NCBI GenBank assembly: GCA_024277725.1
Contig: JAJRUP010000251.1
Location: forward strand, 1 to 35,720
DNA length: 35,720 nucleotides
Direction: 5' to 3'
Origin: a bacterium
GTDB taxonomy: Bacteria; CG2-30-53-67
Shown here: one piece after another, positions 8,322 through 11,664 of the stretch
Layout of the letters: each line of letters starts with the position of its first letter
How positions within the stretch are numbered: the first letter of the stretch is position 1
Notes under the pieces: generated by a model
Database searches by the model: none
Told to the model about the DNA's origin: nothing
Seen by the model: only the letters and a program-made list of their open reading frames with translations
Program-made: the position numbers and the translations under genes

Positions 8322-9431
8322 ATGTCGAAATTAGTGAAACCGCACGGAGGAAAAGGCCTGAAGCCTTTGATGCTTCAAGGCGATGAACTTGCCAAGGCGA
8401 AGGAAAGTGCAAAATCCCTGACCCAGGTTCGAATGAGTTCCCGCGAAACGGGAGACCTGATCATGTTGGGTATCGGCGGATTTACCCCGCTGGAGGGGTT
8501 CATGGGGAAGGCCGACTGGAAAGGGGTTTGCGAGAATTATACCATGGCCGACGGTCTCTTCTGGCCGATTCCGATTACCCTCTCCACCAACAAGGATCAG
8601 GCTGATTCGATCAAAGAAGGTGAAGAAGTGGCCTTAGTCGATGAGGAAAGCGGCGAGTTGATGGGGACGATGGTTGTCAACGAAAAGTATGAGATGACCA
8701 AGGCCGACAAGGAATTCGAGTGCCGGCATGTCTTCAAAACGACGGAGATGGAGCATCCCGGTGTGGCAAAGGTGATGGAACAGGCTGATGTCAACCTGGC
8801 GGGGCCGGTGAAGGTCTTCAGCGAAGGAGACTTCCCGACGAAGTACAAAGGGATCTACATGACACCGGAAGAGACCCGCAGGATCTTCGATGAGAAAGGA
8901 TGGAGTACCGTTGCCGCCTTCCAGACCCGGAACCCGATGCACCGATCTCACGAGTACCTGGCCAAGATCGCGATCGAGATCTGTGACGGCGTACTCATCC
9001 ATCAGCTTCTTGGCAAACTGAAACCGGGGGACATTCCCGCCGATGTCCGGAGCGAGGCGATCGGAACCCTGATCGACAAGTACTTCGTGAATGATACCGT
9101 TATTCAGGCAGGCTATCCCCTGGATATGCGCTATGCCGGCCCGCGGGAGGCCCTGCTCCATGCGCTCTTCCGTCAGAACTACGGTTGCAGCCATCTGATC
9201 GTCGGCCGGGATCATGCAGGCGTCGGAGACTACTACGGCCCCTTTGATGCCCACCATATCTTTGATGAGATTCCCAAGGGGTCTCTGGAAACCCAGCCGC
9301 TCAAGATCGACTGGACCTTCTACTGTACCAAGTGTGACGGCATGGCCTCCATGCGGACCTGCTGCCACGGCAAGGAGGACCGGATGCTCCTCTCCGGGAC
9401 CAAGCTGCGGAAGATGCTCTCCGAAGGCTAA
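8322..9431 (+). CDS. sat: Sulfate adenylyltransferase (ATP sulfurylase), truncated by an in-frame TAA
   Basis: Sat makes APS and pyrophosphate from sulfate and ATP (or the reverse), feeding AprBA. The ATG at 8322 follows AAGGAGG at 8310-8316; the in-frame TTG at 8289 has no ribosome site. The frame shows the PUA-like N-terminal domain ([20 protein letters not shown]), the catalytic [11 protein letters not shown] motif near residue 200, the [13 protein letters not shown] segment, a cysteine-rich [15 protein letters not shown] stretch and [14 protein letters not shown]. It then stops at TAA 9429-9431 after 369 residues. The same frame continues for 37 more sense codons with the expected family C-terminus. 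The stop therefore looks like a substitution of a Lys or Glu codon rather than the natural end. Sat lying last, after qmoC, is a less common order than sat ahead of apr. Confidence 0.93.
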
Positions 9432-10165: not shown

Positions 10166-11059
10166 TTAGTGAAGGAAGGTGTCCCACGCTCTGCATTGCG
10201 GGCAGTGCCACAGAATATGCTTCGATTCGAAGCCGCACTCCCCGCAGTGATAGAAAAGATATTTCGTCGAAAAAATCTCTACCAGGATTTTCATCTCCTG
10301 CTTCACGGCCTCCAGATTTTGCTCCTTCAGGAGAGCCTCGCCAAGTTTTTGATGGGCTTCAATACAGTCCGGGCGGATCTTGATTGCCTCCTGGAATTCT
10401 TCAATGGCGGCAGTCAGATCCCCTTTGCGGGAATAATGGTCGCCCAGGACCAGATGGGTCTGGAGATCCCCCGGATTGCGTTCCGCATTGCGCTGGTAGA
10501 TTCGCTCCATCTCCTCATAACGTCCCAACTCGTAATAGGCGTTTTCCAGCCGCTTGTAGGTCAGGAAGGCATACTCCGGTGTCCGTTCGGCTACTCCCTC
10601 CCAGATCTCGATGGCCTTTGAGAACTTCTTCCGTTCATGGTAATAGTCTCCGAGGTGGAGATAGGCATCGACGCACTTCGGGTCGATCTGGAGTGCTTTG
10701 CGGTATGTGCGGATCGCTTCTTCGGATCGTCCTTCCTCTTGGAGGGCCTTGGCCCTTTCCGTTTGCAGGTGGGCCAGAATGATGGTATCTTTTGATTTGG
10801 TCAGTTTCTGAATCTGCTTTTGAATCTCAAAGGCTTTCTCCCAGCTCTTTTCCTCCTCAAAGATCTTTTCCAGGTGCCGGTAGGCCTGCAGATGACGGGG
10901 GTCCAGTTTGATGACTGTCTGGAACGTCTCGATGGCGCTGTCGAAAAGTCCGGCCTTCTGATAATCGAGGGCCAGATCGAAATAGGCCTGAATCTTGATT
11001 TTCTTGTCCAGTGCGGGGCGGACGATAATACTCTGGTGAATCCGGATGGCCCGACCCAA
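10166..11059 (-). CDS. lapB: LapB (YciM)-like TPR protein, C-terminal part after an internal TAA
   Basis: LapB is an inner-membrane-anchored TPR protein that, in enterobacteria, brings LpxC to FtsH and so limits LPS synthesis. This piece (297 codons) holds the bulk of the TPR superhelix and ends in the rubredoxin-like metal site Cys272/Cys275/Cys286/Cys289 (CGECGF...CPQC). Both are hallmarks of LapB. It opens with LGRAIRIHQ, the conserved helix normally joined to 'LFRxxGE'. The codon before it is TAA (11060-11062), in the same frame as the upstream N-terminal piece, so the two are one gene split by a nonsense codon. A TTG at 11059 would be the nominal start but has no ribosome site. It ends in TAA at 10166-10168. 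Confidence 0.88.
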   Translation of the reverse strand: MGRAIRIHQSIIVRPALDKKIKIQAYFDLALDYQKAGLFDSAIETFQTVIKLDPRHLQAYRHLEKIFEEEKSWEKAFEIQKQIQKLTKSKDTIILAHLQTERAKALQEEGRSEEAIRTYRKALQIDPKCVDAYLHLGDYYHERKKFSKAIEIWEGVAERTPEYAFLTYKRLENAYYELGRYEEMERIYQRNAERNPGDLQTHLVLGDHYSRKGDLTAAIEEFQEAIKIRPDCIEAHQKLGEALLKEQNLEAVKQEMKILVEIFSTKYLFYHCGECGFESKHILWHCPQCRAWDTFLH

Positions 11060-11323
11060 TTACCCTTTGGAGCGGAAGAGGCTTCCCAGACCGAGATAGA
11101 CCTCGACGGTTTCGGAGTCTACTTCCACCATGCGGGTGAACTCCTCAATGGCCTTGTCATGCTCGTTGGAAAGGATGTAGTTCAGACTTTTGTAAAAGCC
11201 GGTCCTGCCGGGGCTTTTGTGTTTTTCGGCGCGAAGCTTCCGGGGAAGCAGGCGTCCGACAACGATCCCTCCCGCCAGGGCGAGACCGCAGAGCAGGAGT
11301 GTATCCGTGGGGGGCTGGATCAT
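11060..11323 (-). CDS. lapB: LapB (YciM)-like protein, N-terminal part ending at an in-frame TAA
   Basis: These 87 codons encode the membrane anchor (LLLCGLALAGGIVVGRLL, about residues 9-26) and the first TPR helices (FYKSLNYILSNEHDKAIEEF; LGLGSLFRSKG), the usual LapB N-terminus. The frame stops at TAA directly after Gly87, then resumes without a shift as LGRAIRIHQSII. In the family a Glu (or similar) fills this position; GAA to TAA is one base change. The ATG at 11323 overlaps the lapA stop (ATGA), so lapA and lapB are translationally coupled. The intact gene would encode 385 residues, the normal length for LapB. Confidence 0.88.
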   Translation of the reverse strand: MIQPPTDTLLLCGLALAGGIVVGRLLPRKLRAEKHKSPGRTGFYKSLNYILSNEHDKAIEEFTRMVEVDSETVEVYLGLGSLFRSKG

Positions 11324-11664
11324 GTACGCTCTTTCGCCGTATCCGGTTCCGGGGGAACGGGAACTTTGCTTTCTGTTTTTTCCATGATGGGGATTTTCCG
11401 CAGGGAAGCCAGTTCCCCTTCCATGCGCCTCTTGGCTTTCTTCAAGGTTCGTATCTGCCCTTCGAGTTTCAATTTTTCATAGACACTGATCAGGAGTGCC
11501 ACCACCATGCCGATGAGCAGTGCAATCAGGAGCAGGAGAAAGAGTGGAACTTCGACAAAATTTTGTTGTGTATAATAAAGGCGGACATTTTCCATGTTGA
11601 TATTGGAAAAGAAAAGGAGAATGAGGAAAATCAACAGGCCCAGGATCATCTTGATGATGAGCAT
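11320..11664 (-). CDS. lapA: LapA-domain (DUF1049) inner-membrane protein
   Basis: This 114-residue protein has two membrane helices (about 3-20 and 39-61) separated by an NINMENVRLYY-type periplasmic stretch, then a cytoplasmic coiled coil (about 62-95) and a proline-rich tail. This is the LapA layout; LapA works with LapB in LPS assembly and control. The ATG at 11664 was preferred to GTG 11670 because AAGGAG lies six bases before it. The stop overlaps the lapB start by four bases. It lies downstream of pilR on the same strand with a 146-base gap, so it may have its own promoter. Confidence 0.88.
   Translation of the reverse strand: MLIIKMILGLLIFLILLFFSNINMENVRLYYTQQNFVEVPLFLLLLIALLIGMVVALLISVYEKLKLEGQIRTLKKAKRRMEGELASLRKIPIMEKTESKVPVPPEPDTAKERT

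Follow-up and report, generated by a model that had tools for sequence, protein, structure and literature searches.

In Escherichia coli, LapB (YciM) is the FtsH adaptor for LpxC, a protein composed of a membrane anchor, a TPR array and a rubredoxin-type zinc ribbon, with a LapA-domain gene as its neighbour. Cells of E. coli cannot do without LapB, which binds FtsH through its transmembrane helix (PMC9356133), and a true loss would have consequences there. Here we describe a LapB-like gene with the same anchor, TPR array, zinc ribbon and LapA-domain neighbour in a stretch of 35,720 nucleotides (the window), which corresponds to contig C219 of G000, a draft genome of 2.92 Mb assembled into 252 contigs. 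Unlike E. coli LapB, this copy contains an in-frame TAA and scores below the equivalog cut-off, and a role in LpxC control is putative here. Viewed in isolation, such a stop would suggest that a gene indispensable to E. coli has been lost. The locus also invites comparison with a second described class, the consensus errors and strain variants of draft metagenomes, including the G>T/C>A artefacts of oxidised guanine: the stops of this genome are likewise isolated substitutions unaccompanied by frameshifts, cluster by contig, are absent from relatives, and fit G>T/C>A in all directly comparable cases. We conclude below that the lapB TAA is probably a wrong or minority consensus base, or an unresolved strain variant, and not a fixed lapB knockout. 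The features of the locus are as follows.

10166 to 11323, minus strand: LapB-like frame of 386 codons with one internal TAA; transmembrane anchor, TPRs and C-terminal zinc ribbon
11060 to 11062, minus strand: in-frame TAA at codon 88; Glu (GAA/GAG) at this position in five of five family relatives
11063 to 11323, minus strand: N-terminal piece of lapB, 87 aa, with membrane anchor and first TPR; positions 6-83 of 388 in the LapB profile
10166 to 11059, minus strand: C-terminal piece of lapB, 297 aa, starting at a TTG that abuts the stop, with TPRs and rubredoxin-type zinc ribbon; positions 86-379 of 388 in the LapB profile
11320 to 11664, minus strand: lapA-like gene (LapA_dom, PF06305), directly upstream of lapB, with an ATGA overlap with the lapB start

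The initial annotation had described a lapB split by a TAA at 11060-11062, and we confirm the stop at codon 88 of the minus-strand frame. Translation across 10166-11323 (minus strand) begins MIQPPTD, reaches LFRSKG immediately before the stop, resumes in the same frame with LGRAIRIHQ and closes with CPQCRAWDTFLH and the terminal stop. The two pieces match the LapB profile NF008757 back to back (6-83 and 86-379 of 388), an end-to-end match that, on profile comparison, is well beyond chance; with the stop read as X, a single match covers positions 6-379 of 388 (E = 4.6e-91, 305.9 bits). The anchor is a hydrophobic stretch near the start, LLLCGLALAGGIVVGRLL, identified by direct reading and aligned in relatives, while TPR families and PF18073 (Zn_ribbon_LapB) pass the Pfam cut-off in the C-terminal piece, which carries two Cys pairs. 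The equivalog cut-off for LapB (NCBIfam PRK11788 group) is 363 bits, a value reached neither by this gene nor by the intact gene of the sister genome (G001; 307.4 bits), and we therefore call the gene diverged LapB-like and not a strict equivalog. Of the earlier description of a single LapB with anchor, TPRs and rubredoxin-like end, the layout stands, with the gene named LapB-like (306 against 363 bits).

The named relatives of G000 are metagenome assemblies; two carry the label uncultured Nitrospirae, and a third is a groundwater-type bin. The lapB gene is uninterrupted in each of the five family relatives (68-80% identity), and the codons aligned to the stop are GAG, GAA, GAA, GAG and GAG. 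Because the gene is one open frame with a Glu codon in all five, lapB is not naturally split; orthologues divided at the same site, the case that the initial annotation had named as speaking against its reading, were not seen, and its proposed single-base change from GAA to TAA agrees with the relatives' GAA/GAG codons. It could nevertheless be imagined that ribosomes restart at the TTG abutting the TAA, which has AAAGGG just ahead of it, and so produce a working two-piece LapB, a short membrane peptide plus a soluble TPR/rubredoxin piece whose 297-aa open frame is still constrained. We consider this very improbable. None of the five relatives has a split gene, and three of them carry TTG or GTG at this site as ordinary coding sequence. 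Furthermore, the restart product would lack the membrane anchor, and since it is the transmembrane helix of E. coli LapB that binds FtsH (PMC9356133), a soluble piece would not be expected to take over this role; nor would a two-piece LapB explain the 15 other stops described below.

Programmed readthrough or recoding of the lapB stop appears less probable again, to the point where we give it almost no weight. The sequence past the stop is conserved, and the family seems to use selenocysteine at TGA, but the interrupted genes of this genome involve TAA, TAG and TGA alike, and TAA and TAG terminate many of its normal genes. No suppressor tRNA is present among the 11 tRNAs found in 896 kb of G000, the RNA fold at the lapB stop is ordinary (z = -0.36), and the stop is not conserved in relatives. 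An Rfam search of the window returned no match. Two probable selenoproteins were encountered in the course of the comparison: a peroxiredoxin in G000 (L188, 5435, minus strand) and a DsbA-like protein in G001 (L097, 18045, minus strand), each with TGA at the position of the catalytic cysteine (FTFV-stop-ATEM and DYQ-stop-PYC, respectively).

It had also been argued that a true lapB knockout would need compensation, with a second lapB and the status of lpxC and ftsH proposed as checks. Both checks were run. The search for a backup lapB in G000 yielded no second copy, only a diverged LapB-like paralogue that occurs family-wide, and lpxC and ftsH are both intact, which rules out a broken lpxC or ftsH as compensation. 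A knockout specific to lapB is unsupported: in a sample of 31% of the assembly, lone stops of this sort interrupt no fewer than 15 further conserved genes of unrelated function, against none in the 1.08 Mb of the sister apart from probable selenocysteine codons. The paralogue itself (L069, 1826-3253, contig C79 of G000) lies between rlmH and gpmI; its product, another LapB-like protein of the TPR/zinc-ribbon type, starts with a LapA-like membrane segment. It is an apparent LapA-LapB fusion, the LapA part being assigned without Pfam confirmation, and similar genes occur in five of five family relatives.

The broader pattern emerged from a survey of 896 kb of G000 (31% of the genome) and 1.08 Mb of the sister G001, in which the same search counted stops flanked on both sides by in-frame coding sequence, filtered against wrong-strand reading frames. 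At least 16 clean internal stops in conserved, unrelated genes were found in the G000 sample, about one per 56 kb; scaled to the whole genome, this would be about 50. One of them, overlooked in the initial annotation, lies in sat, 1.6 kb from the lapB TAA and of like kind, at a position where relatives carry Glu or Asp codons. The stops other than lapB are located as follows, with positions given within each stretch of G000.

Window, 9429 to 9431, plus strand: in-frame TAA in sat (ATP sulfurylase); the homologous conserved C-terminal end stays in frame to 9542
L054: 1698
L068: 2715 and 3946
L142: 8119
L151: 3469
L169: 8830 and 12867
L179: 9083, 18246 and 19394
L181: 2251 and 6179
L184: 3348
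L190: 11085

Besides lapB and sat, the affected genes are rapZ, a PTS EIIA-like gene, an SthA/Lpd-like oxidoreductase, a nitroreductase, maf, mlaE, an ABC ATPase, an HD-GYP gene, a response regulator, two GT2 and one GT4 glycosyltransferase-class genes, a radical SAM/SPASM gene and a LysM-like lipoprotein. A single Pfam match bridges the stop in Maf, HD-GYP, ABC, response regulator, GT2, oxidoreductase and MlaE. Save for a probable selenocysteine TGA, the same scan found no clean internal stops in the 1.08 Mb of G001, and the G000 stops are absent from the orthologues in G001 and G005 (12 searched, all but one clearly identified in G001); the GT2 gene at L179 18246 has only matches of about 50% in these two genomes, leaving its orthologue uncertain. 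Within the ABC_tran family, one of 35 members is broken in G000, and no stop occurs among the members listed for the five relatives. Since TAA, TAG and TGA are all represented, reassignment of one codon is excluded. No frameshifts accompany the stops in approximately 71,600 aligned residues. The stops also cluster, with seven same-stretch pairs against 2.0 expected (P = 0.011). Together, the lone stops point to a property of the G000 assembly, or of the whole lineage.

Set against at least 15 further isolated stops in conserved, unrelated genes, the lapB stop most probably reflects a wrong base or a stray variant in the assembly, and a special change to LPS control is the less likely reading. 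One assembly-level cause would account for lapB, sat and the other stops alike, namely G-to-T/C-to-A substitutions such as oxidised guanine or shallow read coverage could produce, or a mixture of strains in the assembly. The stop is then probably an artefact or unresolved variant, and the LapB-like protein of the organism is probably intact and working in its ordinary role. The number of stops itself tells against this preferred reading: consensus substitution errors are normally rare at good depth, and 16 stops in 896 kb are many for consensus error.

The main competitor, which we think unlikely yet by some way the strongest of the alternatives, is that the lapB stop is real and recent, one of several tens of young pseudogenes produced by a raised G:C to T:A rate or by relaxed selection. 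The TAA is, after all, the base that the assembly reports. The 16 broken genes include no core gene for the ribosome, the tRNA synthetases or replication, a mild point in favour of real mutations that selection has filtered. On the other hand, nonsense mutation without any frameshift is unusual for genuine gene decay, and clustering by contig likewise speaks against it, as does a G+C content nearly equal to that of the sister (54.5% in G000 versus 54.8% in G001). Downstream of the lapB stop, 13 polarised amino-acid changes fall on the G000 branch and 16 on the G001 branch; as G000 has no more changes than its sister, the sequence past the stop has not decayed and shows no excess change, although a very young lapB mutation would also look like this. 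The wider proposition, that the lineage recently gained tens of real nonsense mutations, mostly G:C to T:A and including those in lapB and sat, we hold to be more doubtful still. Were the stops real, LPS would be controlled without full LapB and ATP sulfurylase would be shortened, and such rapid accumulation of nonsense mutations would make the lineage worth studying. For a draft with scattered in-frame stops such as this one, claims of gene loss (lapB, sat or others) therefore need reads first.

The type of base change bears on both an assembly-level cause and real mutation, as unrepaired 8-oxoguanine leaves the same G:C to T:A signature in living cells. Orthologue codons can be compared directly in four cases (lapB E, sat E/D, rapZ S and EIIA E), and all four are compatible with G>T or C>A, a class that makes up only 39% of possible nonsense changes. 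In sat and rapZ the closest-relative codons differ by more than one base, so that a single step there presupposes an ancestral codon that was synonymous or near. Family comparison suggests G>T/C>A for four other stops as well, on a weaker basis. Among single-step unique missense changes near the window, 3 of 21 in G000 and 1 of 37 in G001 belong to this class, both small counts. MutM was sought in G000 and its relatives and found in none of the six genomes, with which unrepaired 8-oxoguanine would fit; however, as it is missing in all six, its loss is not specific to G000, and the relatives also lack it yet have no such stops. The mutY gene is intact in G000, which rules out its loss as the source of the stops and argues further against real mutation.

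Contig ends are the worst part of assemblies, and here three contig-end overlaps, apparently of the same loci, contain 7 mismatches in 1,045 bp (0.7%). Four of the seven are G/T or C/A, and one, inside dnaB, gives Asp or Tyr; these disagreements favour an assembly-level cause of the stops, although they may reflect strain variation. The window itself begins with a dispersed palindromic repeat of about 140 bp (1-140; predicted fold -79 kcal/mol), which has 35 matches in 29 of 81 stretches of G000, mostly at contig ends, occurs at 88-90% identity in the sister genome, and seems to break the assembly. Contig ends of G000 additionally hold two 90% identical copies of a permease and ATPase pair (LolCD/MacB-like; L144, 10493, minus strand, and L170, 5374, plus strand), as well as a further mlaE copy that is intact (90% identity; contig C62), which would reflect either duplication or mixed strains.
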